In this document: positions 12,333-30,701 of the stretch, in pieces
How positions within the stretch are numbered: the first letter of the stretch is position 1
Layout of the letters: every line of letters starts with the position of its first letter
DNA from: a virus
Strand: one strand, 5' to 3'
Virus record (IMG/VR): IMGVR_UViG_3300044960_000921
Span: 1-64,000 of that record
DNA length: 64,000 nucleotides
Notes under the pieces: generated by a model
What the model was told of the DNA's origin: nothing
Seen by the model: the letters and a program-made list of their open reading frames with translations, nothing else
Databases searched by the model: none
Position numbers and translations under genes: made by a program

Positions 12333-12388
12333 AGCGGGCGTCGCAACCCCGGCCCGGGTGGCCCCGGGGCGTGTCCGACGATGCCGTC

Positions 12389-12652: not shown

Positions 12653-12703
12653 TCTAGGGTCCGGCCGTAGGCTCCGACAAGGGGAAGCCTACGGCGGGCC
12701 GCA

Positions 12704-13680: not shown

Positions 13681-13745
13681 CCTGCTATATAGATAATTAA
13701 ATAATAAGATAAATCTTATTAATAATATCAACAGAAGCAGAAACT
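13681..13745. repeat. AT-rich island with perfect palindrome
   Basis: About 65 bases that are nearly all A/T inside DNA of about 70% GC. It contains TAATAAGAT-AA-ATCTTATTA (13702-13721), a perfect 9-bp-arm palindrome, and further ATAATTAAATAAT and AATAATATC runs. It lies just downstream of the giant methylase-helicase gene. Possibilities are a terminator, a protein-binding or replication element, or the edge of an inserted element. Confidence 0.6.
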
Positions 13746-13764
13746 GCGGGATTCCCGGACGTTC

Positions 13765-16700
13765 TTAGAACAGCCACTTCTGGTACTTCCGGCCGTGGAC
13801 CTCCCTCGGTGGGTGCCCGGACGGCCCGGACGGAGCCGGCCCCGCGGGACGGGCGGCGTCGGGTCTCGGGGTGAGGTCGTCGCCCGCGGCTGCTTCCTCC
13901 GTCTCGGGCCAGGCGTCCTCCACGCGGGGCCGCCCGTCGTCCCGGCGAACCCGGGCGGTGACCGGCCGCGCCCGCGCGGGCCGCGCTGCGGCCTCGGCCG
14001 CGTGCGATTCCTTCAAATGCAGGATGAGCCGACGCAACTCCTCGGCCGTCCGCGTCTCCGGCTCGATGCCCTCGGCCCGCGGGGCCGACAACGCGAGCCT
14101 CAACTCGTCCCGCAGGCCCGAGAGCTCGGCGATGTGCGCCTCGTGCGGGAACGCGGCCCCGAGCCTCGCCCCGAAGTCGCGGAGTTTGGCCTCCAAGTGC
14201 GCCAGCTCGCGACGGACCTCCTCGCGGCGGGACCCGTAGCTCCCGAAGAGCCGCTCCAGGGCGTTCAGGACGGCCCGCGGCCCCTGCGACCCTCGCGAGA
14301 GGGGCCTCTCCCGGACCCCCCGCCCCTCGACGAACACCTCGGGCGCGCCGCAGCGGTGCTTGACGACGCCGAACGAGAGCCCACGCATCCGGCCGAGGAC
14401 GAAGCGTCGGGTCTGGGCCACCTCGGCCGGCAGGGCGTCGAGCCGGGCCCCGAGGACGGCCTGGAGCCGGTCCCGAGGGCACGGGATGCCGCCGATGATC
14501 GCCGCGTCATCCGCGTGGGCACGGGCGGTCTCGGAGTCGGCCGATAGCTCGGAGAGCCTCGTCCTCAGGCGTTCGATGGCCTCGGGCAGCTCCCGGACGC
14601 TCCTGCGGGCGAGGAACTGCTCGTCCGCGTGGTGCTTCCGGAGCGTCATGAGCCGCTGGAGGTCGGCGTCCGCCTCCGCGAGCGTCAGGACCGCCGGGTT
14701 GCCCGAGGCGATCGCCTTCACCTCCGCGTAGGACAGCTCCTGGCCGCCGACGTCCTCGGCACGCCTGACGCCGCTCTCGCCCGTCATCACCTGGCCGATG
14801 AACCGGGCCTTGGTCTCGAGCGCCTGCCACATGTAGGCGTCGAACGACCCTTCGGTCACGTAGCGGAAGATGGAGACCACCTCGTTCTCGTTCCCCTGCC
14901 GGAGGATGCGGCCCTCCCGCTGCTCGACCTCGGCCGGCTTCCACGGGGCGTCCAGGTGGTGCAGGGCCGCGAGCCGGCGCTGGACGTTCGCCCCGGTCCC
15001 CATCTTTTGCGTCGAGCCGATGAGCACCCGGACGGTCCCCTGCCGCACCCGCTCGAAGAGGGCCTGCTTCCGGGCGTCGCCGTCGGCGTCGCCGATGGTG
15101 GCGACCTGCCGCCTCGGGACGCCGGCGGCGACGAGCTTCGCGATGAGCTCGTCGTAGACCGAGTAGCCCCAGGGGGTGGGGTTGACGCCCAGGTCGCAGA
15201 AGACCAACTGCGTCCCATTCGTCCCTTCGGTCCGTCGCCAGATTTCGGCCACGCGGCCGACGAGCGCCTCTACCTTCGATTCGGAGGACGCGGGCGCCGC
15301 GGCCGAGAGGAGCCGGGCGTCGAGGGCGAGCTTCCGGCCCTCGGTCGTGATGGCGAGCGCGTTGTCCTCGCGCGGGTCGACCCGCTCCGAGCGGATCCGC
15401 TCGTACCGCTCGACGAGCGTCCCCTGGACGGCCCGCTGCTCCTCGGACATCGGGCACGAGACGACGGCCGGCTTGCCGCCGGCGAGCCGGAGCCGCGGCA
15501 AGTCGAGCATGGCCGCCGTCTGCACGTCGGCGAACGCCCGGAACATCCGCTGGAGCTCGGGCAGGTTCACGAACCTCGCGAACCGGCTGCGGGGGCGCAG
15601 GCTCGCCCCGTCCGGGGCGATCTCCATCGCGTCGACGACCTCGCCGAAGGTCGCGGCCCAGGCGTCGAAGTGCTCGATGCCGCGGTCCCTCAGGCCCCTC
15701 GGGTCCAGGTACCGCTGCATCGTGTACATCTCGACCATCGTGTTCGAGATGGGCGTCCCGGTGGCGAAGGTGACGCCGTGTCCCTCGTGGAGCTCGCCGA
15801 GGTACCTGACCTTCATGAGGAGGTCGAAGGCCCGCTCGCTCCCCCCCGTCTGGATGCCGGCCACCCGCTCCATCTTGGTGGGCGTCTCGAGGTTCTTGAA
15901 GTAGTGGGCCTCGTCGATGAAGAGGTAGTCGACCCCGAGCTCGTCGAAGACCAGGCCGTCGTCCTTCCTGTCCTCGGCGAGGAGGTCCTTGAGCCGCTCC
16001 TCGTGGCGGGCCTTCTGCTTCTCGACCTGCTTGATGACGTTCCGGTGGGCCCGGCCCGAGCCCTCCTCGCCGTCCACGAGGAGCCGGTCGTACTCGGCGA
16101 TCTGCTCTCTCAAGAACCGGGCCCGGTACTCGCGTGACATCCCGATGCGCTCGAAGCTCGAATGCGTGATGACCACGCCGTCCCACTCGGAGCTCGCGAC
16201 CTTCGCGGTGAGCCGCTTCCGCCGCCGCTGGACGAGGTCGTCCTTGGTGGCGACCAGGAGCTTCGCGTTCGGGTAGAGCTGCTGGAACTCGCGGGCGAAC
16301 TGCTCCAGCATGTGGTTCGGGACGACGTAGAGCGGCTTCCTCGACAGGCCCGCGGCCCTGCGCTTCATGCCGATGGCGGCCATCGTGAAGGTCTTGCCGG
16401 CACCGACCACGTGGGCCAGGAGCGTGTTCCCGCCGCACATCCCCCGCCAGACGGCGTCCCGCTGGTGCGGGTGGAGCGAGATCGTCGTGTTCATGCCCGG
16501 GAACTCGAGGTGCGAGCCGTCGAAGGCCCGCGGCCGAAGGTTGTTGTAGGTGTCGTTGTAGAGCCGGACCAGCCGCTCGCACCGCCCGGGGTCGGCGAAG
16601 ACCCACGAGCGGAAGGCGTCCTTGATGCGACGCTGCTTCTCGCGGGCCGCGAGCGTCTCGTCCCGGTTCACGACCCGCTCCTCGCGGCCGCCGTGATTCA

Positions 16701-19236
16701 CGGCGTCGTAGACGACCGGGGCCTTGAGGTTCAACGCCTGCTCGAGGAGGGAGACGCCGTTGGCCCGGGCCGTGCCGTAGTCGGTGGTCGCCGGGACGCT
16801 CGTCATCGCGTCGTGGTCGCCCTCGACCGACCAGAGCGCGTCCTTCCTCAAGTGCCCCACCTCGATGGACGAGGGCGGCACGCCGAAGAGCCCGGCGGCG
16901 AAGGCTCGGACGTCGCCCGCGGGGATCCACGGGGCCCCGAGGTTGGCGTCGATCTCGCCGGGGAGCACGTCCTCGGGTTGCACCGCCCGCAGGGCCAGGA
17001 CATTGCGGGCGTAGTCCTCCCCCGCCCCCTCGGCCGCTTTGAGCTTCGCTCGGACGTCGCCCGAGAGGTACTCGTCCGCCGTCCGCCAGGTCGTGGTCTC
17101 GGGGTCGCGGTAGACGAGCTCGCCCAGCTCCTCGACGACGCGGGCCTCCTCCCTGCCGTAGAGGGCGGCGATGTACGGGACGTCGACCACGCCCTTTCGG
17201 TCGAGCGAGACGAGCAGCCCCTCCTCGGCACTCCGGACCGTCGTGACGGGCGGCGTCCTGCCCACCACGTCCCGCGTCATGACGGCCGCCTTGACGGCCG
17301 TGCCGGTGGTCGGGTCGCAGTCCTCGAGCGCCATGACGAGCATGGCGTCGGGGTCCTCGACGAACTTCACGACGTTCGGCATGCGCTGGATGACGACCCC
17401 GTCCCTCGACTCGCTGAAGGTCGTCTTGTTGATGAGCCCGTGGCGGAGGACGAACAGGTCGTAGGCGCGGTTGAGGGCGGCCCGGGCGGCGTCGCGGTGG
17501 CCCGCGGGCCACCCCTCGTTCTGGGATCGAAGGACCCGCCGGGCCTCGTCGCGGAGGCGGATGAGGGCCGCGAGGCGCCTACCGGTCATGGTGCCGTCGG
17601 CCCGGAGCCGCCTGCCGCCGTAGAGGACCGCTTCGGGCCGGCCGTCGACGACCTGGTGGATGACCCGGTCCTCGCCGATGAAAAAGCTCCCCTCGGTGAC
17701 GTGCCGCTCCGGGGGCGGGGCCGCGAGGGCCGGGGCCTCCGGCCCGCCGCCCTTCGCGGCCGGACTGGTCTCGAATCGCGGCAGCCGGTCCACGGCGGCC
17801 CGGAGGGCCTCATCGAGTGGCCCGGCCGACGCGACGCCGTAGCCCCCTTCGCCCCCGTAGAGTCGGTCGGAGCGGCTCCACGTCCCGAGCACCATCTCGG
17901 GGTGTTCGTGGAAGTAGCGGTTGACGGGCACGTCCACGCCCTCGACGGGGAGCGGGGCGACCGTGAGCCAGTCGTCGCAGGCGTGGCGTGCCCCGTCCCC
18001 CGCCCCGCGACGTCGCAGGAAGACGATGTCGGCGACGACCCGCGTCCCCTGTCGGGCGAAGGCGTCCGACGGCAGGCGGATCGCCCCCAGGAAGTCGGCC
18101 TTCCCCGCGAGGTAGTCCCGAACCCGGGCGTTGCGCTTGTCGAGCGTGTGGTGCGTCGTGACGAGCGCCAGGATGCCGCCGGGCCTGAGGGCGTCGAGCG
18201 ACTTCGCGAGGAAGTAGTCGTGGAGCGAGAACCGCTCGCCGGCGTGCTCGCGCCTGAGGTCGGCGAAGGGCGGGTTGCCGACGACCGCGTCAACCGCCTC
18301 GAGCAGACGCGTGTCGCGGAAGTCCTCGATGCGGATGTCGTGCCGCGGGTGGAGGGCCCGGGCGATGCGGCCCGAGAGCGAGTCGAGCTCGACGCCGATG
18401 AAGCGCATCGCCTCGGGGGCGAGACGCAGAAAACCGCCCGGGCCGCAGCCGGGCTCCAGGACCGTGGCGTCCTCGGGCACTCCGAGCCGCTTCAAGGCCC
18501 GGTAGATGGCCGAAACGACCGTCGGCGAGGTGTAGAAGGCGTTGAAGACGGTGCGTCGGGCGCCCGCGTACTCCTCGGGCGTCAGCAGCCGCCGGAGTTC
18601 GTCGCCGAGGGCCCGCCACGAGGGGCTCTTGAAACGGCCGGTCGTCGGGTCCGGGAAGATGCGGAGGGCCAGGGCCCCGAACCCGCCGAACCGCCCGAGG
18701 ATCCTCCGCTCCGCCTCGGTGGGGGGGCGGCCGTCACGCTCGAGCCCCTTCAGCACGCGGATCGCCTCCACCGTCGCGCGGGCCGCGGCGACGGAGTTGG
18801 CCGGCGGCGGGACCGGCGCGCCCTCCGGTCCGTCGTGGACCCCGCCGTGCGTCGCGTGTCCCGACCCGCCGTCGGCCGGTCCCCCCGCCATCGGGGCCGG
18901 GCCGGGGATGGAGGGGCCGTCGAAGGAGAACACCCGTTGGGCCGGCGGCCGGGGGGTCGCGCCGGGACCGTCGCGGGCCGCGGAGTCATTCGTCGGTTCG
19001 GCGTCGGCCGGCCGACCAGGGAGCCGGAGGGCCTCGAGCTCCGAGCCCGGTGAGTCGCCCCCTGACCCTTCGGGTCCCGGAGTCGCACCCGCCGACTCCC
19101 CCCGGGCCAGGCCCGCCCCGTCCCGCGGATCGCGGTCCCCCGGGCGATCGCGCACCGCGGGCGGCGGTCGACCCGCCGCAGGTCGAGCGTCGCCTCGGTC
19201 TTCTTCGGGCCGCCCTCGGTCTGGTCCTCCTCGCAC
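13765..19236 (-). CDS. Giant DNA methylase + SNF2-like helicase (polyvalent mobile-element protein)
   Basis: 1823 residues. The first 150 are Pro/Gly-rich and disordered. A class I methyltransferase follows (motif I EPGCGPGGFLRLAPE, motif IV VVGNPPFADL, adenine-type N-P-P-F). Next is a superfamily 2 helicase: HQRDAVWRG, Walker A HVVGAGKT, DEAH box LFIDEAHYFKN, TGTPISNTMVEMY, and C-terminal motif RILRQGNENEV. The tail is coiled-coil and ends KYQKWLF. Such fusions are encoded by plasmids, ICEs and large phages and are thought to modify or protect incoming DNA. The GTG at 19236 follows GAAGGAG. A TTG two bases earlier opens a different frame and makes the exact start uncertain. Confidence 0.85.
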   Translation of the reverse strand: MRGGPDRGRPEEDRGDARPAAGRPPPAVRDRPGDRDPRDGAGLARGESAGATPGPEGSGGDSPGSELEALRLPGRPADAEPTNDSAARDGPGATPRPPAQRVFSFDGPSIPGPAPMAGGPADGGSGHATHGGVHDGPEGAPVPPPANSVAAARATVEAIRVLKGLERDGRPPTEAERRILGRFGGFGALALRIFPDPTTGRFKSPSWRALGDELRRLLTPEEYAGARRTVFNAFYTSPTVVSAIYRALKRLGVPEDATVLEPGCGPGGFLRLAPEAMRFIGVELDSLSGRIARALHPRHDIRIEDFRDTRLLEAVDAVVGNPPFADLRREHAGERFSLHDYFLAKSLDALRPGGILALVTTHHTLDKRNARVRDYLAGKADFLGAIRLPSDAFARQGTRVVADIVFLRRRGAGDGARHACDDWLTVAPLPVEGVDVPVNRYFHEHPEMVLGTWSRSDRLYGGEGGYGVASAGPLDEALRAAVDRLPRFETSPAAKGGGPEAPALAAPPPERHVTEGSFFIGEDRVIHQVVDGRPEAVLYGGRRLRADGTMTGRRLAALIRLRDEARRVLRSQNEGWPAGHRDAARAALNRAYDLFVLRHGLINKTTFSESRDGVVIQRMPNVVKFVEDPDAMLVMALEDCDPTTGTAVKAAVMTRDVVGRTPPVTTVRSAEEGLLVSLDRKGVVDVPYIAALYGREEARVVEELGELVYRDPETTTWRTADEYLSGDVRAKLKAAEGAGEDYARNVLALRAVQPEDVLPGEIDANLGAPWIPAGDVRAFAAGLFGVPPSSIEVGHLRKDALWSVEGDHDAMTSVPATTDYGTARANGVSLLEQALNLKAPVVYDAVNHGGREERVVNRDETLAAREKQRRIKDAFRSWVFADPGRCERLVRLYNDTYNNLRPRAFDGSHLEFPGMNTTISLHPHQRDAVWRGMCGGNTLLAHVVGAGKTFTMAAIGMKRRAAGLSRKPLYVVPNHMLEQFAREFQQLYPNAKLLVATKDDLVQRRRKRLTAKVASSEWDGVVITHSSFERIGMSREYRARFLREQIAEYDRLLVDGEEGSGRAHRNVIKQVEKQKARHEERLKDLLAEDRKDDGLVFDELGVDYLFIDEAHYFKNLETPTKMERVAGIQTGGSERAFDLLMKVRYLGELHEGHGVTFATGTPISNTMVEMYTMQRYLDPRGLRDRGIEHFDAWAATFGEVVDAMEIAPDGASLRPRSRFARFVNLPELQRMFRAFADVQTAAMLDLPRLRLAGGKPAVVSCPMSEEQRAVQGTLVERYERIRSERVDPREDNALAITTEGRKLALDARLLSAAAPASSESKVEALVGRVAEIWRRTEGTNGTQLVFCDLGVNPTPWGYSVYDELIAKLVAAGVPRRQVATIGDADGDARKQALFERVRQGTVRVLIGSTQKMGTGANVQRRLAALHHLDAPWKPAEVEQREGRILRQGNENEVVSIFRYVTEGSFDAYMWQALETKARFIGQVMTGESGVRRAEDVGGQELSYAEVKAIASGNPAVLTLAEADADLQRLMTLRKHHADEQFLARRSVRELPEAIERLRTRLSELSADSETARAHADDAAIIGGIPCPRDRLQAVLGARLDALPAEVAQTRRFVLGRMRGLSFGVVKHRCGAPEVFVEGRGVRERPLSRGSQGPRAVLNALERLFGSYGSRREEVRRELAHLEAKLRDFGARLGAAFPHEAHIAELSGLRDELRLALSAPRAEGIEPETRTAEELRRLILHLKESHAAEAAARPARARPVTARVRRDDGRPRVEDAWPETEEAAAGDDLTPRPDAARPAGPAPSGPSGHPPREVHGRKYQKWLF

Positions 19237-20715: not shown

Positions 20716-21672
20716 CTAGACAGGGTCACGGACAGGGCCAACGCATCTCAATTTCGGGGAAATCCGTGAATCTTCAGGGTCGGCGGCCCAACTTCCGAGC
20801 GTTTGAGAACCGAGACACTTCGTCCGAACCCTGGAAAGAGGCCGGAATAGAGATGCGTTGGCCCTAGAGTCGCGGATCTCATTGAGGTCGGGAAGGAACT
20901 GCCTCGGCTGGCGTCGTGGGGCGTCGCCGGTGCTTCTCGCGCCGGCGCCACCGCCCTCCGGTACTGCTCTTTCTTCGGCTGCACTCGCCGCCGGCCGGGA
21001 CGGATTGCCGCCCCCTGCCACCAGGGACTTCACGAGGATTCCGATGCCGGCCACGATGACGGCGACCAGGAGTGCTCTGACGATGAGCTGTTCCTTCTCG
21101 ATCGCAAGGATTCTGTGATCGTATGCCGCCCTCAGTTCATCGATCCGCTTCTTCAGCTCAGCGGGAGAAGCGACCTCGCCCTGGATTTTCGAGACATCGT
21201 CCGCGGTGATGACATTCCTTGCCGCTGGCCTGGGCCTGTAGAGGTCCTTGGTCGGGTCGTCCAGGTCGCAGAACCAGATCATGAAGATCGGCTGGCCCTG
21301 ATCCAGCCTGATGGTCTGGCTCCCGGCGTTGTACACGGCGAACTTCAACTGGCCCTTGAATCCGAGGTCCACGTGGAAGCCCGAGACGTTCACGAGGCCG
21401 CGGAATTTAATCCCGGCCCGGATCGATATGAAGCCGATGGCGTCGGGGGGAACGGCCACCTCCTCAGCGGTGACCAGATGGTGCGGATCGGCTCGATTCA
21501 TCCCATACCCAAACTCTTGGCGCCGGATAAAGCCAGGAAGCCGATCCCCTTCAAACACCATGAGAACCAGCCAATCATTCCCGGATAGCTCCCCGAAGAT
21601 GTCGTCCAGAACATGTCCTGCTATGAGCAGAAAGGGGCGACCCCGCAGGCGGGGCCAGGGCGCCCGAGCCAA
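20716..21672 (-). CDS. dCTP-deaminase/dUTPase-fold membrane protein, probably catalytically altered
   Basis: The core (IGFISIRAGIKFRGLVNVSG through LDQGQPIFMIWF) matches the trimeric dCTP deaminase/dUTPase fold, including the G-F-x-V-D-x-G-F-K-G turn. The general-base Glu of dCTP deaminase, expected in the strand before YNAG, is Ala here (QLKFAVYNAG). A coiled coil (LKKRIDELRAAYDHRILAIEKEQ) and one transmembrane helix (VRALLVAVIVAGIGILVKSLV) follow. The N-terminus is uncertain: a better N-terminal match (ELVLKSFGSGALAPP) lies in another frame near 21700-21650, suggesting a frameshift. The tail after residue 240 is low-complexity and includes an inverted repeat. Phage-defence dCTP deaminases exist, but activity here is doubtful. 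Confidence 0.6.
   Translation of the reverse strand: MARAPWPRLRGRPFLLIAGHVLDDIFGELSGNDWLVLMVFEGDRLPGFIRRQEFGYGMNRADPHHLVTAEEVAVPPDAIGFISIRAGIKFRGLVNVSGFHVDLGFKGQLKFAVYNAGSQTIRLDQGQPIFMIWFCDLDDPTKDLYRPRPAARNVITADDVSKIQGEVASPAELKKRIDELRAAYDHRILAIEKEQLIVRALLVAVIVAGIGILVKSLVAGGGNPSRPAASAAEERAVPEGGGAGARSTGDAPRRQPRQFLPDLNEIRDSRANASLFRPLSRVRTKCLGSQTLGSWAADPEDSRISPKLRCVGPVRDPV
20735..20864. repeat. 14-bp perfect inverted repeat pair
   Basis: GGGCCAACGCATCT (20735-20748) is the exact reverse complement of AGATGCGTTGGCCC (20851-20864), with 102 bases between. It overlaps the low-complexity end of the dCTP-deaminase-like frame. It may be a hairpin terminator with an insert, a miniature element, or the true non-coding end of that gene. 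Confidence 0.5.
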
Positions 21673-21900: not shown

Positions 21901-22779
21901 TCATCGTACCCACCGCCCTAGGCCCGCGCGGATGTGCCTGGCCCAATCCAGGGCATCTCCCATGCCCGCCTGGCTGCAGTAGGGGCAGCCCGCGCGCGGT
22001 TGGTCCTTCGACTCGTTCACGATCCCGCGGATGCCGTCGTATCGGAGCAGACGCTTGGGCGCCCTGATCGCCCCGGTCACCAGCAGCATGAACTCCATGA
22101 CGGCGATCGAGGCCAGGATCCCGTTGAGCGAGACCACGGAGGGGCCGCCGTCGCCGAGAGCCTCCCGGCGGACCCCATACATTGCCGCCTCCTCCTCCCG
22201 GCGTTCAGGCGAGGTTAGGTCGCGCTGGACGGCTTCAGGGTCCAGCAGGTCGAGGCAATAGGGGCACCCACCCGCGTACTTGCGGATCATCAGCCGGCCC
22301 CCGAAGCCGACGTGCGACTCGTCCTTGTAGGTGTCGGTCGCCAGGTCGAAATACGGCCGGTCGTAGGCGCAGGCGAATTCCGTGAGCAGCAGCCGCGCGC
22401 CGTCGCGGTCGACGCAGCCGAAGATGACCTGGCTCCCGCCCAACGCGGCCTCCCCGGCCTCGGAGACGAATGAGTCCGGCACCGGCGAAACGTCGGCGTC
22501 GGGCTCGACCGAGAGGATCCCTCGGGCCGCCACGTCCACCTTCGCCTCGGGCTTCCCGAGGTCGAGCTCCGTGGCCCCGATCAGGCGATTGAGGTTCGAC
22601 TTCGAGACGCGATCGGCGTCGATGAGCGCGTAGCTCCGCACGCCGAGGTAGGCGAGCTGCTGGGCGACGTGGGACCCGGTCCCGCCCAGACCGACGATCG
22701 CGACCCGGGTCGCCGCGAGCCTCTCCTGGCCCTCGCGGCCGAAGAGCATGAGGTGCCGGTCGAACCGCTCAAGGTCCAC
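21901..22779 (-). CDS. E1-like adenylating enzyme (ThiF/MoeB fold) of a ubiquitin-like system
   Basis: 292 residues with the Rossmann nucleotide motif VAIVGLGGTGSHVAQQL (about 26-42), ALIDADRVSKSNLNR, an arginine-rich ATP-binding region and two zinc-ligand pairs, CPYC at 172-175 and 265-268. Family role: adenylate the C-terminal Gly of a ubiquitin-like partner. The crossover segment where MoeB/E1 enzymes carry the catalytic Cys reads YFDLATDTYKDESHVGF, with no Cys, so thioester formation is doubtful. The gene overlaps the JAB gene by 11 bases and is last of the conjugation cassette. Confidence 0.85.
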   Translation of the reverse strand: MDLERFDRHLMLFGREGQERLAATRVAIVGLGGTGSHVAQQLAYLGVRSYALIDADRVSKSNLNRLIGATELDLGKPEAKVDVAARGILSVEPDADVSPVPDSFVSEAGEAALGGSQVIFGCVDRDGARLLLTEFACAYDRPYFDLATDTYKDESHVGFGGRLMIRKYAGGCPYCLDLLDPEAVQRDLTSPERREEEAAMYGVRREALGDGGPSVVSLNGILASIAVMEFMLLVTGAIRAPKRLLRYDGIRGIVNESKDQPRAGCPYCSQAGMGDALDWARHIRAGLGRWVR

Positions 22780-23308
22780 GCTTCACCCCCTCCGCGCGCA
22801 TCGCGTCCAAAGTCCGGCCGGTCGGGACCATCTTCCTGAACCAGCCCAGGCGGATGACATCCAGGGGCACCGGCGACGGCGAGTCGTCGACCCACGCCAT
22901 GGAGTCGACGCTGATCGGGTTGACTAGGACGGCCAGGTAGGGCTTCCCCCGCAGACGCCACCGGCAGTGAGGCACGAACTCCTCGAAGCCGGACAGGTCG
23001 CTGCCGGAGAACGTCGCCTGCCGGCTCTCGGTCGGGTGCGAGTGGAATTCGACGATCGCGGTTCCCGAGTCCCAGGCCTGCTTGATGACTCTCGGCCGAA
23101 CGTGGTCGGCGAGCTCGATGTGGTAGCCGGTATGGACGTCGAAGTCCTGCGGCGGCACGAGGTAGACGACCTGGGGCTTGAACACGACCGACCCGTTGCC
23201 GGAGTCGACCTTCGAGAACACGAAGGCCGCCTGTTCCAACTCATTCTGAAGCAGGTGGGCCCAGAGGCGTCTCTTGAGCCCACCGCCGAGGTCGAGTGTC
23301 ACTTTCAC
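22769..23308 (-). CDS. JAB/MPN metallopeptidase (predicted deubiquitinase-like)
   Basis: 179 residues with a JAMM zinc site: upstream Glu in NELEQAAFVF (22-24), then H89-S-H91-P and a downstream S101-x-x-D104 (FSGSDLSGF). Family role: cleave the C-terminal tail or isopeptide link of a ubiquitin-like protein. It lies one base after the E2-like gene and overlaps the E1 gene. The HxH-to-Ser spacing is slightly longer than the commonest JAMM form but all ligands are visible. Confidence 0.85.
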   Translation of the reverse strand: MKVTLDLGGGLKRRLWAHLLQNELEQAAFVFSKVDSGNGSVVFKPQVVYLVPPQDFDVHTGYHIELADHVRPRVIKQAWDSGTAIVEFHSHPTESRQATFSGSDLSGFEEFVPHCRWRLRGKPYLAVLVNPISVDSMAWVDDSPSPVPLDVIRLGWFRKMVPTGRTLDAMRAEGVKRGP

Positions 23309-23309
23309 G

Positions 23310-23720
23310 TTAGGGCCCCTCCCCGAAGCGGTCGCGGAACGACAGCACGAAGTTCAGGAAGTTGCTTCCGGACTCCGGCTCCGGCCCGGGTTGCCACGAG
23401 TCGAGGTGCGACCAGGAGAACTTCGCCCAGGTCCCGGGCAGCGGGGTGGGCGAAGGCTCCTGGTAGTTGTTGACGGGGGCGCGGTTGTCGGCCGCGAGCC
23501 GGAGCGGGGGCGAGACCCAGAACGCGTAGGGGGCGTTTCCCGGGTACCCGGCGGGCACCTGGAAGCAGACCTCCACCACGCCCGGTGCCCAGCCCCCGTG
23601 CTGGACCGTATACCGCGGGATGCGGATCCAGCCGCCTTCGACCTCGTGGTACTCGGCGTCCGGGAACACCGAGCGGAGGAGCTCCATCTCTCTGGCGATG
23701 CGCTCGGTCATCGGCCTCAC
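23310..23720 (-). CDS. E2-like protein (prokaryotic E2 family E type)
   Basis: 136 residues matching the prokaryotic E2 family-E layout: VEGGWIRIPRYTV, a strand pair ending VPAGYPGNAPYAFWV, then W-x-K-F-S-W near residue 100 and a C-terminal helix FLNFVLSFRDRFGEG. The only Cys (VEVCFQVPAGYP) sits in a core strand rather than at a catalytic position, so it cannot act through a canonical E2 cysteine. The start overlaps the ubiquitin-like gene stop (ATGA). A later in-frame Met (MTERIAR) is an alternative start. Confidence 0.75.
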   Translation of the reverse strand: MRPMTERIAREMELLRSVFPDAEYHEVEGGWIRIPRYTVQHGGWAPGVVEVCFQVPAGYPGNAPYAFWVSPPLRLAADNRAPVNNYQEPSPTPLPGTWAKFSWSHLDSWQPGPEPESGSNFLNFVLSFRDRFGEGP

Positions 23721-23983
23721 CCCCGCTGGAAGCGGACCTTCTTGGCGAAGCCGTGACCGGGCTTGAGCTCGACCACCTCGTTCTCGGCCAGCGTCCGCTC
23801 GGTGTTGTCCTGGAGGTTGATCTCCAGCACCGGGGTGTCCGAGGGCAGCGAGCCGAGGGCGCGGATCTCCGGGACCGTGATGGTCTCGCGGTCCCAGGCG
23901 TACTCCTTGCCCTCGATGTTGACGTTGAACATGGGCCCGTGGGGCTTGTCCTCACGGGCGAGCTGAGCAGCGACGGCGGTCAT
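23717..23983 (-). CDS. Ubiquitin-like modifier (multiubiquitin-type domain) ending in Gly
   Basis: 88 residues from the ATG at 23983, which follows GAGAGGGG. One beta-grasp domain of the bacterial multiubiquitin family is seen: FNVNIEGKEYAWDRETITVPE, then LEINLQDNTERTLAENEVVEL. The protein ends FQRG, so its terminal residue is a Gly ready for adenylation without processing. A single domain is present rather than tandem copies. Expected to be activated by the E1 downstream and passed to the E2-like protein. Confidence 0.8.
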   Translation of the reverse strand: MTAVAAQLAREDKPHGPMFNVNIEGKEYAWDRETITVPEIRALGSLPSDTPVLEINLQDNTERTLAENEVVELKPGHGFAKKVRFQRG

Positions 23984-24022
23984 GGTAACCCCTCTCGGCA
24001 GCATCATTGGGTCGACGTGCGT

Positions 24023-24045
24023 GCCACTCCCGCGCTGGGAGTGGC
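24023..24045. promoter_or_regulatory. Hairpin in the leader of the ubiquitin-like cassette
   Basis: GCCACTCCC-gcgct-GGGAGTGGC is a perfect 9-bp stem in the 179-base gap between the ImmA/IrrE stop and the modifier start. It has no T-run in the direction of transcription. It may attenuate or stabilise the message between the regulatory and conjugation halves of the operon. Confidence 0.45.
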
Positions 24046-24162
24046 GACGCCTGTTGTCGGGCCGGCTGGCTCAGCCGAGTCCTCTACACATGACCTCGGG
24101 GCAGACCGCGCATCGTGCTATGGATTTCGGTTTTTCTCTCGGGGCCCTGTCCTTGGCCCGGC

Positions 24163-24987
24163 TCAGTCGTCGCTCCCTGGATCCTGCAGGGTCAGGTAGG
24201 TCAGGACGAGGCCGGTGTAGCCCAGGGGCATCGCCTCTTCCCACAACTCTTCGCGGTACGGTCGCTCGTACCAGGCCTGCGCGGGGACCAAGCCGCCGAC
24301 CGCGTCGAGGGAGTCGCTGCCCTCGAGCCGCTTCCAAAGCCCGGCGGTTCGACTCGTACCCGGCACCCGGCTACCCGCCGGGACGTGGGACATGCCGAGC
24401 GCCCTCATGCTGTCGGAATGCCAGGCCCAGTTGACCCGGTTGGCCTCGCTGACGACCATGGCGCACGGCTCGAAGTCGAACTGGCAGTAACGCCTGACGG
24501 TGCTGGTCACCGATGTCTGGAACTCCTCGTCGGCCAGTCTGCATAGGTCGGAGAGGGTCCAGAAGCTTCGTCGTCTCTTGTCCATCTCGGCGAGGAAGAG
24601 CTCTCGCGGCATGAGCAGGGCCGACGCGAACTCGTCCGCCTCGTTCTCGCGAGGGTTTCTCGAGCGGAAGTCGATAACCGAGTTGTGGCTGCGCCCGCTG
24701 AGCAGATACTCCCGGTGGGATGGGAGGTAGAAGTGCGCGAGCTCATGGGCGAGTGAGAATCTGACCCGGCTCTCGGTGCGTCCGTGCTGTGCGGTCCGGT
24801 AGTAGAGGATGAAGGCCCTCTCCGCGCCGACGAACTCGATCCTCGCGTCGAACTTCGGACCGTACCTGCCGGGGGCAAGCTCAATCCCTTCCTCCTTGAC
24901 GATGGCGAAGGGATTGACCGGTAGTCGCCACATGTCGAGCGCGATGAGCGTCGACTTGGCGAAGTTCTCGATGTCAGGCGTCCTCAC
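24163..24987 (-). CDS. ImmA/IrrE-family metallopeptidase
   Basis: From the GTG at 24987 (AAGGAGG just upstream) the product has 274 residues. The zinc motif is H81-E-L-A-H85, with a third ligand in ENEADEFASALLMP near E116, the standard ImmA/IrrE arrangement. Members cleave repressors or anti-sigma-like partners in response to a signal. The C-terminal 100 residues are family-specific and Trp/Tyr-rich. It overlaps the coiled-coil gene upstream by 14 bases, pointing to a regulated partner in the same operon. Confidence 0.85.
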   Translation of the reverse strand: MRTPDIENFAKSTLIALDMWRLPVNPFAIVKEEGIELAPGRYGPKFDARIEFVGAERAFILYYRTAQHGRTESRVRFSLAHELAHFYLPSHREYLLSGRSHNSVIDFRSRNPRENEADEFASALLMPRELFLAEMDKRRRSFWTLSDLCRLADEEFQTSVTSTVRRYCQFDFEPCAMVVSEANRVNWAWHSDSMRALGMSHVPAGSRVPGTSRTAGLWKRLEGSDSLDAVGGLVPAQAWYERPYREELWEEAMPLGYTGLVLTYLTLQDPGSDD

Positions 24988-25372
24988 CGCCTCCTTCCTT
25001 CCGTTCACGGGCCCGGCGCTCGAGTATCTCCCGTTTGCGCCGCTCGAGTTCCTCCGCTGTCTCTCCATCGATCTCCTCGGCGCGGTTCAGGCCCCAATCC
25101 GCTCCGCTGCCCGCGAGGGCGAGAGCATCCTCCTCATCGCACGATTCCCGTTGTCGCTGTTCCGGTTTCGCCTCCAGCGGGCGTTCGCCGGCCAGGAGGC
25201 GTTTGACGAAATCGCTGCCGAGGGATCTCATCGCCGCCTTCTCCTCGTCCGTGAGCTGAGGCAGTCGATCTGGGTCGATCACCTCGTCGTCCTTATCAGC
25301 TCGCCGGAGTGCCGAGACGAGCAGAGCGTCCAATGCCCGCTCTTCCCGCTCTCGCTTGCCCCCTGCGCTCAT
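24974..25372 (-). CDS. Coiled-coil hypothetical protein, possible ImmA/IrrE partner
   Basis: 132 residues, very charged: basic N-terminus (GGKREREERALDALLVSALRR), central PQLTDEEKAAMRSLGSDFVKR, and a C-terminal coiled coil (AEEIDGETAEELERRKREIL). Starts 3 bases after the sigma-factor stop and overlaps the ImmA/IrrE start. Position between a sigma factor and a peptidase suggests an anti-sigma or adaptor cleaved by the peptidase, which is an inference. Confidence 0.6.
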   Translation of the reverse strand: MSAGGKREREERALDALLVSALRRADKDDEVIDPDRLPQLTDEEKAAMRSLGSDFVKRLLAGERPLEAKPEQRQRESCDEEDALALAGSGADWGLNRAEEIDGETAEELERRKREILERRARERKEGGGEDA

Positions 25373-25375
25373 GAG

Positions 25376-26029
25376 TCACTCCACGGGGATGAACGAGTAG
25401 CCGCGTTTGGTGAGGGCCGCGGCGATCTTCTCTCGCGCGAAACGCCAGTCGCTCTTCACGGCGGCGACGCTCTCCGTCTTGCCGGTGACGGCGCCGACCG
25501 CCTCCGCCAGGGGGCGATAGGTGTCGCGTTCGCGAAAGTCCTCGAAGTGGTCGACGAAACACCGAGCGACGATCCGCTGGCGGTGGGGAAGGGTCTGGAT
25601 GATCTCCAGGAGGACCACCCGGAACTCCTTGGCCTCCGCCGGTGCGATGTTCAGTCGCCACTCGAAGCCGAGGTCGGTGTTCTTGAGGTCTGCGGCTACC
25701 GCGTCGAGAATCGCGTCCTCGTTGGTGTTCACGCTGTGACCGTGCTCGCGCAGGAGGTCCATCCCCTTATTGCGCGCGATCGACTGCACCATCCTCAGGG
25801 GACGCTGAGGATCAAACCCCGGCCTCCGGGCCAGCACGATCATTGCAAGCATGGTCTCTTGATAGGCGACCAACAGCTCGTGAGGATCGAGCAGCCCATA
25901 GGTTTCTCGCTTTATATAGCGAAGGATATGCTCCTGATAATCGGCGTCGAGGAGTTCAATGGCAAAGTCGGGATCGTCGCGAAAGGCGGATTCCAAATCC
26001 GCCTCACTGACGGGGTCGGTCGCTGCCAT
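25376..26029 (-). CDS. Sigma-70-family (ECF-like) RNA polymerase sigma factor
   Basis: 217 residues. Region 2 is visible as RYIKRETYGLLDPHELLVAYQETM, then PLRMVQSIARNKGMDLLR. A region-4-like part follows: LLEIIQTLPHRQRIVARCFVDHFEDFRERDTYRPLAEAVG and a final helix rich in Lys/Arg. It is the first gene of the run that leads into the ImmA/IrrE and ubiquitin-like genes, so it probably activates this operon. Confidence 0.75.
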   Translation of the reverse strand: MAATDPVSEADLESAFRDDPDFAIELLDADYQEHILRYIKRETYGLLDPHELLVAYQETMLAMIVLARRPGFDPQRPLRMVQSIARNKGMDLLREHGHSVNTNEDAILDAVAADLKNTDLGFEWRLNIAPAEAKEFRVVLLEIIQTLPHRQRIVARCFVDHFEDFRERDTYRPLAEAVGAVTGKTESVAAVKSDWRFAREKIAAALTKRGYSFIPVE

Positions 26030-26197
26030 GAAACCCCAGCCCTCTCAACCTTTTGAAGCTTCAATCCGGTGCCGGCATCTCTTATCCTCGGTCGTCTCGA
26101 CGCATCGAGCTATCGCCGGACAGATTTTTCTGATTTTTTGTCCAGTGGTTGTATTTCAGGACGAGTCATCCCCGGCGGGACGACGTAAGCTCTCTAT
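26030..26197. promoter_or_regulatory. Upstream region of the sigma-factor operon
   Basis: AT-richer than its neighbours. It contains T-rich direct repeats (GATTTTTCT, GATTTTTTG at about 26122-26142) bracketed by GACA and TGTC, and GAAGCTTC at about 26054. These are candidate promoter or operator elements. No gene. Confidence 0.35.
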
Positions 26198-26500
26198 TTG
26201 ACGTGTCTTACCCCTGATCGGCCGCCTGAGGAAGGCGTGAAAGAACGCGGAGAGGTTGCGGACGGGTACATCGAGTCGTTCAACGGCCAGCTCTCCGGCG
26301 AGTTCCTGGACGGCGAGGTCCTCGACACCCTGCTGGAGGCGAAGGTGCTGACCGAGCGGGGGCAGGTCGGGCACAACACCATCTCCCCCCACAGCAACCT
26401 GAAGTACCGCCCGCCGGCGCCCGAGGCGATCGTGCCGTGGACGACGGCGCTCGGAGCTGCGCCGCTCGGCGCGGCGTCTATGGCCGGGCCGGGGCACTGA
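26198..26500 (+). pseudogene. IS3-family transposase OrfB C-terminal fragment
   Basis: The reading contains YIESFNGQLSGEFLDGEVLDT, LLEAKVLTERGQV and HNTISPHSNLKYRPPAPEA, which is the end of an IS3-type DDE transposase with the final Glu (E of YIESFNG). Everything N-terminal is missing and several conserved residues have changed. Confidence 0.75.
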
Positions 26501-26628: not shown

Positions 26629-27585
26629 TTAGAGCAGGTTCTGAAGCCCAACAAGACACCGCTCGACCTCCTCCCACTCCGGATACCCCCCGAAGCAGAG
26701 CAGCTCGCACTGGGCCCTGTACTCGCGAGCGACCATGTCCTTGAGCGCCCCGCTCGGGAAGATGGCGGCGCTCTCGTTGAAGCGCATCCCCTCGGGCGGC
26801 AGGTAGTACTTCGGGAAGTGGGCACGGCTCAGGCGGTCGTAGTCGATGCGAAGCTCGTCGTACTCGCGCGAGTTGAGCATCGCCCTCACCTCGTCCCTCT
26901 GGGCGAGCCTGTAGAGGTCGTAGTAGTGCCTCGCGTAGGTGCCGAGGGGCTTCCCGCCTTTGAGGTACTGCTCGATCTTTCCGTGGATCGTGAAGAGCTT
27001 CTCGACGAAGGTCCGTCGGAAGTGGAGGAGCCGCATCGTGAACGGCGCCTCGTCCTCGGCCCCGACCGAGTTTCCGGTCTCTCGCAGGAACGCGGCCGCG
27101 TACGAATCGAGCTGCAAGTCCTCGGTCGGCTGCCGGCCGCTCGCGGTCCCCGCCTCGACCAGCACGCGGGGCCTCAAGCTCCCCGGGAAGAGCTGCCTGT
27201 ATTCGAAGTGGTCGTCGCGTCCGATGCCGCCGATCTTCCTGCTGTCTTCGACGACGAGGTGGAGACCCGGGTGGGCGGCGACCGTGTCCCGCAGCTTCTC
27301 GAGCTCTCGGTCGATCGGTCGCTTCCCGAGCTTCGGGGTGTACGCCTCGGGGTCGAGGAAGATGTCGATGTCCTCGGAGAAGCGTTGGATGAGCCCCCAC
27401 CCTTTGGACAAGCTCGTACCGCCCTTGAAGATGACCTTCGGGCCGTACGCCTGGGCGATGAGCCTCAATGCTTCGGTGACGTAGTAGTCCTTCTCGATCG
27501 CGGACGCCGAGAGCCCCGACGATCCGAAGTGTTCCGCGGCCGCTAGGAGCAGTTGCTCGAAATCCTCATGCTCGAAGAGTCTCAT
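26629..27585 (-). CDS. abiEii: AbiEii-type nucleotidyltransferase toxin, first copy
   Basis: 318 residues with the DNA polymerase beta-like fold of AbiEii/DUF1814: EKDYYVTEALRL, motif GGTSLSKGW (55-63) and QRFSEDIDIFLD with metal-binding D72-x-D74. The later MRLLHFRRTFVEKLFTIHGK carries the conserved Lys region. Members transfer nucleotides to tRNA or similar substrates and stop growth. It overlaps the antitoxin by 20 bases. It looks intact. Confidence 0.88.
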   Translation of the reverse strand: MRLFEHEDFEQLLLAAAEHFGSSGLSASAIEKDYYVTEALRLIAQAYGPKVIFKGGTSLSKGWGLIQRFSEDIDIFLDPEAYTPKLGKRPIDRELEKLRDTVAAHPGLHLVVEDSRKIGGIGRDDHFEYRQLFPGSLRPRVLVEAGTASGRQPTEDLQLDSYAAAFLRETGNSVGAEDEAPFTMRLLHFRRTFVEKLFTIHGKIEQYLKGGKPLGTYARHYYDLYRLAQRDEVRAMLNSREYDELRIDYDRLSRAHFPKYYLPPEGMRFNESAAIFPSGALKDMVAREYRAQCELLCFGGYPEWEEVERCLVGLQNLL

Positions 27586-28330
27586 CCGTCCTGCACTCCT
27601 TCGCTTGCCATTCCTTAGCCGATTTGAGCGCTGAGAGGAGGCCGAAATCGAACCTCGTGAGCGGGTTCAGGCTCGTTCTCAGCTTCTCGAGCGTCTTCCC
27701 GTCCTTCCCGAGCTCTTCGCCCAGGGCCCCGAGCATGGCACGCACCCGCGGGGGCTCGTGCTTCGCGACGCGGACGAGCCGCTCGAACATCCCTCCTTCT
27801 CTCAAGAGCGAGAGGAGCCTTGCGATCGTCTCCTCCGGCGAAAGTTCGCTCGTCTGGGCTCGCCTCCTGATCAGGTCCAGAAGGGCGCCCTCCCGCTCGG
27901 AGAGCTTCGCCCACGCAGCGGGCCGACGGGTGTGGACGCGGGCTCTCTGCCCCACCATCGTTCGTGGCAAGCTCCCCCGAGTCGTCGCAACCTCCTCGAC
28001 GGCGGGCACCTGCGTGCTGAATCCCAGCTGATTCGCCGCGGTCAGCCCCGAGGGGAACACCGCGCGCGTCCTGGCTCCCTTCTCCCTAAGCAGCTCCGGA
28101 TTGGGGCGGCTCATGCCGAATGCAGTCTTTCGCGGGCGGTAGTAGAGCCCCTTCGAGACTCGCTGGAGCTCGCCCGCCCGGGCGAGGCGCGAGAGCGTCT
28201 GGGCTACGGCCGGAAACGGCAGCTTCGGGAAGTCCTGGACGGACCAGACCCGCTCCCCGCCCCCGTCGATCGCCCTGCGGACCCGGTCGGCCGCGCTCAG
28301 CGTCTGGTGGTGTTCCGCGTGCTTCTCCAT
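27566..28330 (-). CDS. abiEi: AbiEi-type antitoxin, first copy (DUF6088-like)
   Basis: 254 residues from the ATG at 28330. N-terminal winged helix (VWSVQDFPKLPFPAVAQTLSR then LQRVSKGLYYRP) followed by the AbiEi antitoxin domain (VFPSGLTAANQLGFSTQVPA). In AbiE systems this protein represses the operon through inverted repeats and counters the toxin without direct binding. The operator at 28362-28389 lies 32 bases upstream. The frame is open further upstream but runs through that operator. Confidence 0.85.
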   Translation of the reverse strand: MEKHAEHHQTLSAADRVRRAIDGGGERVWSVQDFPKLPFPAVAQTLSRLARAGELQRVSKGLYYRPRKTAFGMSRPNPELLREKGARTRAVFPSGLTAANQLGFSTQVPAVEEVATTRGSLPRTMVGQRARVHTRRPAAWAKLSEREGALLDLIRRRAQTSELSPEETIARLLSLLREGGMFERLVRVAKHEPPRVRAMLGALGEELGKDGKTLEKLRTSLNPLTRFDFGLLSALKSAKEWQAKECRTDETLRA

Positions 28331-28361
28331 ACCCTCTAAGATCGCTTCCGGCTCGCCAGAA

Positions 28362-28389
28362 GTCAAGTTTTTTTGCTCGTAAACTTGAC
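28362..28389. promoter_or_regulatory. Inverted-repeat operator of the first abiE pair
   Basis: GTCAAGTTT (28362-28370) and AAACTTGAC (28381-28389) are perfect 9-bp arms with a 10-bp spacer, 32 bases upstream of the antitoxin start. Two inverted half-sites are what AbiEi antitoxins are known to bind. Confidence 0.7.
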
Positions 28390-28586
28390 AATTTGAGGTG
28401 ACCTGTCGGGCCACCTCCGTGCGGCCGGGAACTTCGAACGCATCGAGCACGAGCCCTAACCCTTCCCGCCCGGCGGGCAGTTTGCACACGACCCAACGGT
28501 ACAATCCGTTCGACCGCCGAGTCGAAGCATCGCGTGTGACACGGCCGATCGGCAGGCCTCACGCGTCCCTGCGACGCAAACAGCGT
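28390..28586. other. Short non-coding gap
   Basis: Upstream part of the abiE promoter region and the 3' side of the AlkB-like gene. No hairpin with a T-run or other gene is seen. Confidence 0.4.
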
Positions 28587-29173
28587 TCAATCCTGGAAGG
28601 CCCGCACGGTCACCGAGATGCGGCGTCCCTTAGCCTTCGCCGACTTCGGCACCTCGTGCTTCCAGGCGAGATTCGTGTCGTAGGGCATGACGAAGACGGT
28701 GCCGTCCGTCGCCGGGAAGTCGCGCCGCGTCTTCGAACCAGGGAGCGTCAGCCGGAACACGCGAGTTTGCCCGAGCGAGACCGTGACGATCGGGGCGCCC
28801 ACGACCATGCGTTTGATGCTGTCGTTGTGCGGGCCGATGTAGTGGCCGAGCGTGCCGTCGTACCAGTTGAGCAGGAGCCCGTTGAGCCGCCCGTGGAACG
28901 ACGCCTTAGCCCAGGCGAGGAGCGGCTCTAGGGGCGGCGGGACGGGCAGTGACTCGCTCAGGCGCCCCGAGAAGCGGTAGTCCCGGCCGTAGGCCCGCTG
29001 CCAGCGGGGCAGCTTCACGAGGCGGCCGTGCATCGTGATCTCCTGGTATTCCTCGGGGAGGAGCGACCAGAGCCGCACGAAGCCCTCCGCGTCCACGGCG
29101 AGGTGTGCGGGGAGCCTCCCGAGTAGAACGCGTGCTCGCCGTCCAGGTCGTGACGCTCGAAGCTGTCGATCAT
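28587..29173 (-). pseudogene. AlkB-like 2-oxoglutarate/Fe(II) dioxygenase, frameshifted near the N-terminus
   Basis: The catalytic part is intact: GPHNDS (H-x-D), KHEVP (distal His) and RRISVTVRAF (2OG-binding Arg), with LLNWYDGTLGHYIGPHND before them. The natural start is the ATG at 29173, preceded by GGGAGGGG and sharing ATGA with the stop of the second abiEii. That frame (MIDSFERHDLDGEHAFYSG) must lose one base near 29112-29120 to join RLPAHLAVDAEGF. A GTG at 29096 could give a shortened intact protein. AlkB enzymes demethylate nucleic acids. Coupling to a toxin-antitoxin operon is unusual. Confidence 0.7.
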
Positions 29174-30099
29174 CGCCCCTCCCCCGGGAGCTGCTTGCCC
29201 CACCCCGACTCAGGCACCCAAGAGCGTGTGAACGGCTCGCCGCTTGATGCGTGATCGAGCGGCGGGAGGAGGAACACGGAGAGCCTCCTCAGCACCTCCT
29301 CAAGTTCCCCCGCGGCATAGAGCCCGCTCCTGTTGATGAACGCATGCCACTGCTTCATCTTCGACTCCTCTCGGGCGAAGGCGTCGGTCAAGCCTATGGG
29401 CATCCCCTTCGGGAACGCGGTCGAGCGTCGTTCGAAGGTGTTCGTGATCGCCCGTGAGAGGAGCTCCCCCTCGAACGGGAACGTGTTGGCCATGACGAAG
29501 AGGTCGTAGAAGTCCTTCATACGGGAGTTTGCGAGTCCGAGCTTCACCAAGGCCTCGAGCTTCTCGGCGACGACCGTCTCCCTGGGATACGCGCGGAGCC
29601 TCGGTGCATCCATGTCGAGGATCGTCGGGAAGTCGACCTCCTCGGCGGGCGGCGTGACGGCGTCCCCGAAGCCAACGTCAACCTGGAGGTCGATGCGCGC
29701 CTGCCCGAGCTTAGCCTCGATCCGCGCCCGCTGCCCGCCGTACTCCTGGTCCTCGCGGATGGGATCGACCGTGACCGACTCCGCGTCGAATCGGAGCCCG
29801 TCATCGGAGACCTCCACGCGGCACACCTCTGCGAGGACTCGCCTCAGGCGCTCGCCGCCCGGGTCGCCGTAGCCGAGTAGGTCGAGGTCACGCGTCGGCC
29901 GGTGGAGCTCCCCGGTCCAGAGGGCGAATAGCATCGCGCCCTTCAGCACGAAGGCGTCGCGGTGCCCGGACGCCGACAGCCGGAACAGCAGCCGCTCGAC
30001 GGCGTAGCGGGTCAGGAGCCGCTGAAAGTCCTCGCCGGTCTTCCGGCTCATGTTCAGGAGCCGCTCCTTGACCGAGGCGGCGACATTCTTCCTCGTCAT
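29170..30099 (-). CDS. abiEii: AbiEii-type nucleotidyltransferase toxin, second copy
   Basis: 309 residues from the ATG at 30099, which overlaps the antitoxin stop (ATGA). Key residues are KGAMLFALW (53-61) and RDLDLLG with D71-x-D73. DAPRLRAYPRETVVAEKLEAL and KDFYDLFVM are typical of the DUF1814/AbiEii family. Its stop overlaps the AlkB-like start, so three genes are translationally linked. The two toxins are clearly diverged from each other. Confidence 0.88.
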   Translation of the reverse strand: MTRKNVAASVKERLLNMSRKTGEDFQRLLTRYAVERLLFRLSASGHRDAFVLKGAMLFALWTGELHRPTRDLDLLGYGDPGGERLRRVLAEVCRVEVSDDGLRFDAESVTVDPIREDQEYGGQRARIEAKLGQARIDLQVDVGFGDAVTPPAEEVDFPTILDMDAPRLRAYPRETVVAEKLEALVKLGLANSRMKDFYDLFVMANTFPFEGELLSRAITNTFERRSTAFPKGMPIGLTDAFAREESKMKQWHAFINRSGLYAAGELEEVLRRLSVFLLPPLDHASSGEPFTRSWVPESGWGKQLPGEGR

Positions 30100-30701
30100 G
30101 CGAGCGACTCGAGGTACGGCCGCATGACGTTCTCCATGCGGCAGATCTTCGCGGCGTGCCAGAGCTCGTCCATCGTGGCCTTCCGCTGCTTCCAGCAGTC
30201 TCGGAGCGCCTCGAGGGCCACGTCGAGCCCTATCTTGTTCCGGTACTTGAACGCATCGGCGACGGTCTTGGCCGGTGAGTACACCTTCACCGCCACGTTC
30301 TCGAGCTCGTGCACGTGGACCAGCTCGGTGAGGGCGGGCCCCGAGAAACGCACCACCTTGAGCCTCGGCGTATTGACCCTCGGCGTCCAGGCCTTGTTCG
30401 GGAGCGCAAGCCACACCTCCCTCGGGGACTGGGTCGTCATCCCGTGGAAGCGGAGAGCCGAGAGCAGGCACACGACGCCGACCGGGACGAGCTTCTGGGC
30501 CTCGACCAGGCTGTGGTGCTCGCCGACGTCGGCCTCGGGCGAGGCGTAGAGCCCGCGGGCCACCCGGTCGGCGAGCCCCCGCCGGTAGAGGCGGTCCAGG
30601 TAGTCGGCGGGTATGCCTCGCTCGGTGAGATCGCGTGGACGGAGCGTCCCTCTACGCCTCAGGAGCTCCAGGGCAGCGTCGAACTTGGTGACGTCCTCCA
30701 T
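30096..30701 (-). CDS. abiEi: AbiEi-type antitoxin, second copy
   Basis: 201 residues with an N-terminal winged helix (ALELLRRRGTLRPRDLTERGI, LADRVARGLYASPE) and the antitoxin domain (VGVVCLLSALRFHGMTTQSP, KTVADAFKYRNKIGLDVALEAL). The operator at 30709-30742 abuts the start codon, so repression would block transcription or translation initiation directly. Confidence 0.88.
   Translation of the reverse strand: MEDVTKFDAALELLRRRGTLRPRDLTERGIPADYLDRLYRRGLADRVARGLYASPEADVGEHHSLVEAQKLVPVGVVCLLSALRFHGMTTQSPREVWLALPNKAWTPRVNTPRLKVVRFSGPALTELVHVHELENVAVKVYSPAKTVADAFKYRNKIGLDVALEALRDCWKQRKATMDELWHAAKICRMENVMRPYLESLA

Follow-up and report, generated by a model that had tools for sequence, protein, structure and literature searches.

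A putative sigma-based control switch with a CapP peptidase, adjoining a ubiquitin-like cassette in planctomycete DNA

The window, i.e., the whole 64,000-nucleotide stretch of DNA analysed here (positions 1 to 64,000 of IMG/VR record IMGVR_UViG_3300044960_000921), contains seven genes which, in order of transcription, encode a sigma factor, an acidic small protein, a CapP peptidase, a ubiquitin-like protein, an E2-like protein, a JAB peptidase, and an E1. The first three genes, here the ‘trio’, may be read as a control switch based on a sigma factor, with the last four as its target, a reading to which we would assign a probability of roughly two in three. Control of this kind would add to the repressor-based ways known for bacterial immunity. 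That is, costly immune operons must be kept silent until needed, and for Bub (bacterial ubiquitin-like) operons as well as for cyclic-oligonucleotide-based antiphage signalling systems (CBASS) the published answers to this problem are repressors. Here, by contrast, a protease of the type gated by single-stranded DNA (ssDNA) seemingly is wired to a sigma factor, implying activation along with self-amplification.

As envisaged, the acidic small protein at rest would keep the sigma factor, which resembles those of the extracytoplasmic function (ECF) type, inactive. A build-up of ssDNA, as upon phage infection or DNA damage, would then activate CapP, as is known of other CapPs, and activated CapP would cleave the small protein, conceivably near a near-invariant arginine. 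The freed sigma factor could then start transcription at matching elements found upstream both of the gene encoding it and of the ubiquitin-like gene, the outcome being self-amplification together with expression of the cassette (multiubiquitin, E2-like, JAB, E1). The switch would work, that is, as CapH-CapP does, with the repressor exchanged for a sigma/anti-sigma pair. The features in question are as follows, each on the minus strand.

26086..26113 (-): bipartite promoter-like element ATAGCnCGATGCG-N9-CCGAGG, ending 56 nucleotides (nt) before the sigma start
25376..26029 (-): ECF-like sigma factor, first gene of the trio, 217 residues (TIGR02937, trio sigma profile)
24974..25372 (-): acidic small protein, 132 residues, candidate anti-sigma and CapP substrate, with near-invariant Arg97 in GLNRAEE
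24163..24987 (-): CapP-type ImmA/IrrE zinc peptidase, 274 residues (a longer reading starts at 25068)
24094..24121 (-): second ATAGCnCGATGCG-N9-CCGAGG copy, within the 179-nt gap, ending 110 nt before the ubiquitin-like gene
24023..24045 (-): hairpin with 9-bp stem, without T run, in the leader of the ubiquitin-like genes (from sequence and fold)
23717..23983 (-): multiubiquitin-type ubiquitin-like protein, 88 residues, single domain, C-terminal ...KKVRFQRG
23310..23720 (-): family-E E2-like protein without conserved cysteine (Prok-E2_E)
22769..23308 (-): JAB/JAMM metallopeptidase (Prok-JAB; HSHP...SGSD motif)
21901..22779 (-): ThiF-type E1 adenylyltransferase (ThiF)

A preliminary description of this DNA had given seven genes on one strand, overlapping or abutting save for a 179-base gap with a hairpin, and the open reading frames (ORFs) lie just so. 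Their successive junctions are a 3-nt gap, a 14-nt overlap, the 179-nt gap (23984-24162), a 4-nt overlap, a 1-nt gap, and an 11-nt overlap. The hairpin within the gap was considered as a terminator, a reading rejected because it is not followed by a T run. The 179-nt leader as a whole does not fold with unusual stability (z -1.67), and has no match in Rfam.

A recurring three-gene module

The third gene had been described as an ImmA/IrrE peptidase, which its match to Peptidase_M78 bears out (9.7e-12, above the curated cut-off). Judged by its sequence, it is more specifically a CapP, i.e., the protease known from CapH-CapP, a switch gated by ssDNA: It matches PADLOC capP at an E of 1.3e-48, its family profile finds a solved CapP structure (7t5t) at 2.7e-38, and the zinc site HExxH...E (H81, E82, H85, E114) is intact and indeed invariant in 34 of 34 CapPs. 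Other CapPs are known to be activated by ssDNA and to cut a transcription regulator (PMC13373217).

Likewise upheld is the sigma-70-like factor. Sequence profiles place its family clearly as ECF-like, as the trio sigma profile, with sigma-70 regions 2 and 4, matches ECF sigma structures (best RpoE, 2q1z, at 5.5e-21 over positions 1-198) and 24 of 25 trio sigmas match TIGR02937 (sigma70-ECF). The window protein taken by itself scores weakly. Structure prediction without alignment was poor (predicted local-distance difference test, pLDDT, 55), and fold searching returned matches to region 4 only, none of them significant by E-value (2h27, probability 0.98, E 0.19).

How general this association may be was assessed in 398 Planctomycetia genomes, whose 28 best-scoring CapP loci (E of 2.1e-40 or lower) were re-annotated using a home-made gene caller. 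The trio is found at 25 of these, consisting of a sigma factor of about 190-260 residues, an acidic protein of about 115-145, and then CapP, with the small protein of locus L076 broken or not clearly resolved. CapH is found instead at the other three (L061, L062, L066). A second sample, taken from the phylum, gave 13 new strong loci, 11 of them with the trio, one with CapH, and one lacking a clear assignment. Of 80 viral contigs bearing CapP-like genes, seven carry the trio while most carry CapH-like repressors; both this search and that of the second sample employed profiles built solely from the first set. Scanning viral contigs with single window proteins (E2, sigma, and CapP) yielded nothing, as did plasmid searches with the window sigma (tblastn), the small protein of L081 (tblastn), and the sigma/small-protein DNA of L082 (blastn).

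The full collection comprises 48 trio loci. In most of them the sigma gene either abuts the small-protein gene or shares 4 nt with it, and an overlap of the small-protein gene with that of CapP is likewise seen in most. The distances of the three proteins correlate as well (Mantel r 0.82, 0.76, and 0.83; 0 of 5000 permutations; n=24), figures which still include species kinship. That peptidase, partner, and sigma factor form a conserved module is strongly supported. Trios of a more distant type B (L083-L087, L089) have small proteins that look unrelated to those of type A, and sigmas whose similarity to type A is marginal (E 1.8e-4), for which reason these are treated as putative sigma factors only. 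A quick tree of 107 CapP sequences can be reconciled with three label changes, and places the type A trio CapPs beside CapPs of CBASS-type CapH-CapP, with support of 84 for the type A branch and 95 for the joint branch.

On the present reading, it is the small protein that would link peptidase with sigma factor. The 132-residue protein has no match in Pfam, NCBIfam, or PADLOC, and no helix-turn-helix (HTH) domain. Its family has a median net charge of -16, and Arg97 (motif GLNRAEE) recurs in all 17 independent small proteins outside of the defining set. As a cleavage-loop arginine of DdrO is reported to contact ssDNA (PMC10904395), the small-protein arginine is a candidate ssDNA-contact or cut site. 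That the protein may be an anti-sigma is suggested by its position, its co-variation, and its acidity. Structure prediction without alignment was poor here as well (pLDDT 57).

An unlikely alternative is that the small protein serves instead as a positive sigma partner or chaperone, with CapP cleavage ending rather than starting the response. Searches of the small protein found no known anti-sigma domain, which suits this alternative, and gene order along with co-variation would suit any obligate partner. In CapH-CapP and in DdrO-PprI, however, the protease removes an inhibitor, and it is the inhibitor's slot, i.e., that of CapH relative to CapP, which the small-protein gene fills. At L090 (6525-7091) the two are even joined, with a small-protein N-terminal part (1.2e-5 to the small-protein profile) followed by an HTH domain (Pfam HTH_19, 8e-6), upstream of a CapP-like gene. 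By sequence this is a natural fusion between both kinds of CapP partner; the L090 CapP is itself placed apart in the quick tree, on a very long branch.

The ubiquitin-like cassette and its tie to the trio

The last four genes had been likened to Bub/Bil-type cassettes, and all four families indeed are found together. The ubiquitin-like protein matches Multi_ubiq (1.4e-5), the E2-like protein Prok-E2_E (1.4e-6), and the E1 ThiF (7e-37), each above cut-off, with the JAB protein just under (Prok-JAB 4.6e-5, 23.7 versus a cut-off of 25 bits) while possessing the HSHP...SGSD motif. The same gene order is seen on a Tenderia plasmid (L002), where the last ubiquitin-like repeat runs directly into the E2-like domain. 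Both cassette type and neighbouring genes suggest that this probably is an antiphage system.

Description of the fifth gene as a family-E E2 stands as to family but less so as to function. That is, no cysteine is conserved among 11 aligned members, and of 13 proteins examined four (L220, L085, L086, L061) lack cysteine altogether, in contrast to the conserved catalytic cysteine of a canonical E2. Conjugation by this E2 is doubtful for that reason, and the protein may be non-catalytic.

Recurrence of the seven-gene order, proposed in the preliminary description as a check, is found in an independent genome (G424, locus L220), where all seven genes stand on one strand in exactly the window's order. 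Identities to the window are 44% for sigma, 43% for the small protein, 47% for CapP, 49% for the ubiquitin-like protein, 40% for the E2-like protein, 43% for JAB, and 41% for E1. More broadly, roughly 20 members of the 48-locus trio set have ubiquitin-like conjugation genes within the fetched stretch, in many cases divergently oriented relative to sigma (the window, L064, L074, L075, L076, L078, L081, L085, L086, L087, L089, L090, L112, L115, L220, L221, L222, L224, L229, and L230, with L074, L224, and L229 counted on an E1-type gene alone and L078 on a family-B E2). Viewed from the cassette side, Prok-E2_E is present in 17 of the 398 genomes of the class sample; of these 17 loci, six carry the trio and nine are accompanied by an HTH/ImmA-type pair or by CapH, with two not clearly assigned.

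Conservation of the first three genes with the last four therefore holds for L220 and for about 20 of 48 loci but not for the majority, where the cassette is lacking. As the trio is not bound to such cassettes, it is linked with, rather than confined to them, and is a general control cassette. The built-in switch of the preliminary description consequently survives as a conserved three-gene module (25 of 28 loci, 48 in all) with CapP as peptidase, its tie to ubiquitin-like genes not being exclusive.

From this lack of exclusivity it may be argued instead that trio and cassette are independent systems co-located in defence islands, with the sigma factor not controlling the cassette. This is distinctly unlikely in our view. 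The absence of the cassette from over half of trio loci and a neighbourhood rich in defence-type genes would be in keeping with independence. Running counter to it, however, are the same seven-gene order at 40-49% identity in L220, one and the same bipartite element before both the sigma and ubiquitin-like genes within each of these two divergent genomes, and, in L222, a 22-nt element common to both upstream regions.

Promoter-like elements upstream of sigma and target

Within the 64 kb of the window there are only two copies of ATAGCnCGATGCG-N9-CCGAGG, one before the sigma gene and the other before the ubiquitin-like gene. At the same two places L220 has TCTGTCGCACGC-N14-CGAGG. These patterns were picked following inspection, and consequently it is shuffling rather than pattern counts that carries weight: The shared-element score of the window, and likewise that of L220, was reached by 0 of 1000 shuffles. 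The stretch common to the two upstream regions in L222 (22 nt, one mismatch) was found in 0 of 200. A further, short pattern, CGATG-N12-CGAGG, found also before the sigma gene of L057, was dropped as evidence because it is common genome-wide (27-41 copies per genome), which leaves the long bipartite form as the one relied upon.

In most clades, the sequence upstream of sigma consists of a box (TTAAGG, TGTAAC, or TGTCAC, depending on clade), then 7 nt, and then CGTA, often as an inverted pair. A motif search of 41 sigma upstream regions gave a log-likelihood of 133.7, versus 58-66 in shuffles. Spacing of GTTAAG at ten loci is 7 at nine sites and 17 at three, with none at other spacings tried. 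GTTAAG-N7-CGTAT occurs 10 times across nine genomes, seven of these at the trio locus, versus nine occurrences for the reversed control. In Isosphaeraceae EP7, a cultured planctomycete with a 7.2-Mb genome, its sole two copies are on plasmid pEP7_04, one before the sigma gene and the other before the gene following CapP. This latter gene, bearing the sigma-type element, is a DUF1883 gene.

Because elements are shared upstream of sigma and target, sigma-type control from separate, matching start sites is well supported, as judged from these motifs, and the ubiquitin-like genes probably have a transcription start of their own. The preliminary description had held that separate starts would refute the switch. 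Separate starts probably do exist, yet are not counted here as a refutation, since a target driven by the sigma factor should itself display a matching element.

The elements might be read, alternatively, by a general repressor or other factor, with the sigma factor acting elsewhere and the trio itself being a target. We consider this very unlikely. In its favour, the usual element is palindromic, i.e., two half-sites with a 7-nt spacer, unlike the usual ECF promoter. The first box nonetheless varies with sigma clade, as expected were sigma region 4 reading that box, and the arms of inverted pairs are 11-40 nt apart across species, unlike a single dimer operator. In addition, several left arms have a spacer of 17, i.e., one helical turn longer and the usual ECF spacing, and no other DNA-binding gene is common to trio loci. 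The usual ECF spacing is seen also at L220, where TGTCGC and the conserved block following it stand 17-18 nt apart.

Against the reading of the trio as a sigma-based switch with the cassette as target a number of points should be weighed. Cleavage, sigma binding, ssDNA response, and antiphage action are, for the window's system, inferred. Most trio loci are without adjoining ubiquitin-like genes. The window sigma, at 8.9e-6 to TIGR02937, is below that family's cut-off, and domain and profile searches detected no kinship of the small protein to known anti-sigmas. Around the arginine, comparison of the small-protein profile with that of CapH gave no significant match (P 0.28), nor did comparison of type A with type B small-protein profiles (P 0.086), and common ancestry is for this reason claimed in neither case. 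The 7-nt spacer of most clades is 10 shorter than usual ECF spacing, and the window's own clade is without the CGTA form, its element being of another type.

A broader proposal would be that of a general sigma-based, DNA-damage-gated immune control, in which CapP cuts an anti-sigma and the sigma factor, reading a clade-specific local element, activates itself plus a neighbouring defence cassette, whether ubiquitin-like or of another kind. Such control would have arisen through replacement of CapH and then spread through Planctomycetota, with a compact 7-nt-spacer promoter in most clades. To this broader version we give an even chance. Were the window's switch itself borne out, CapP would be a plug-in sensor with exchangeable output, part of the Bub operons without an assigned regulator would be accounted for, and the 7-nt-spacer element would pose a puzzle for sigma-promoter recognition. 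The exact elements and proteins given here allow direct tests.

Comparison with known systems, and the surrounding sequence

CapH-CapP, as found with CBASS and in Bub operons, is similar to the window system in employing the same protease family, in being placed before a defence operon, and in having the partner gene directly upstream of, and overlapping, the protease gene. It differs in that the window has a sigma factor and acidic small protein rather than the HTH repressor CapH directly upstream of CapP. As the 132-residue protein has neither HTH nor family match, the window system is not filed as CapH-CapP, and with CapH so replaced, control would be by activation rather than by relief of repression. 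PprI/IrrE-DdrO of Deinococcus similarly combines an M78 peptidase with a partner having a key arginine; there the peptidase PprI is ssDNA-activated and the arginine is in the cleavage loop of its substrate, DdrO (PMC10904395), but that substrate is an HTH repressor and no sigma factor is involved.

Protease, anti-sigma, and sigma are combined in immunity also by CalpL-CalpT-CalpS of type III CRISPR, where anti-sigma cleavage frees the sigma factor (PMC12751052). There, however, the protease is a Lon activated by cyclic tetra-adenylate (cA4), and the window small protein lacks detected kinship to known anti-sigmas. With Craspase (Csx29-Csx30-CASP-sigma, type III-E CRISPR), a protease cleaves Csx30, an inhibitor of an ECF-like sigma factor with binding sites inside the locus (PMC10028731), but that protease is an RNA-guided CHAT protease, with neither CapP nor ubiquitin-like genes present. 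The window protease is of the Peptidase_M78/CapP kind rather than the Lon-SAVED or TPR-CHAT kinds of these two systems. Bub/multiubiquitin cassettes, lastly, have the same four gene families in their usual order. The window differs from these in having separate JAB and E1 genes, an E2-like protein without conserved cysteine, and the sigma trio rather than CapW, CapH-CapP, or CapK-CapS control; 219 of 544 Bub operons carry CapW or CapH-CapP (PMC13373217). Literature text searches, which did not cover subscription papers, found no report of a CapP/sigma module.

The source of the window is a hot-spring planctomycete. A viral source, as implied by the record, was rejected, as window positions 1-45304 are collinear with and 99.99% identical to chromosome contig BPJS01000001 (metagenome-assembled genome ‘Isosphaeraceae bacterium KatS3mg108’; compared directly outside of 2001-17378). 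Window and contig differ past this point, and a sequence search with 62000-64000 gave no match. As the break is 135 bp beyond an integrase-like gene (43973-45169), an integrative element probably has its edge near base 45304. A small excisionase-like ORF is found at 43759-43998, near that integrase-like gene.

Adjoining the seven genes is an AbiE-type toxin-antitoxin-like pair (26629-28504; confirmed by PADLOC and Pfam), with a transposase-like ORF fragment (26237-26500) between it and the sigma gene, and a second such pair, recognised by eye, at 29170-30701. Directly downstream of the E1 gene, ORF 20716-21672 has a dCTP deaminase-like domain (67-147) plus a C-terminal extension. Neighbours of the trio at other loci include a type I restriction enzyme (L110), a Wadjet-like JetC (L080), PglZ (L230), HmaC (L064), and an OLD/AAA nuclease (L077). 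DUF1883 genes recur beside the trio (L006 7937-8200, L081 9729-9986, L071, L072). A gene for a lamin-tail-domain protein of about 167 residues, often near a DUF1883 gene, is divergent from sigma at L067, L068, L071, L073, and L076, and in L067, L068, and L076 is preceded by the same element as sigma.

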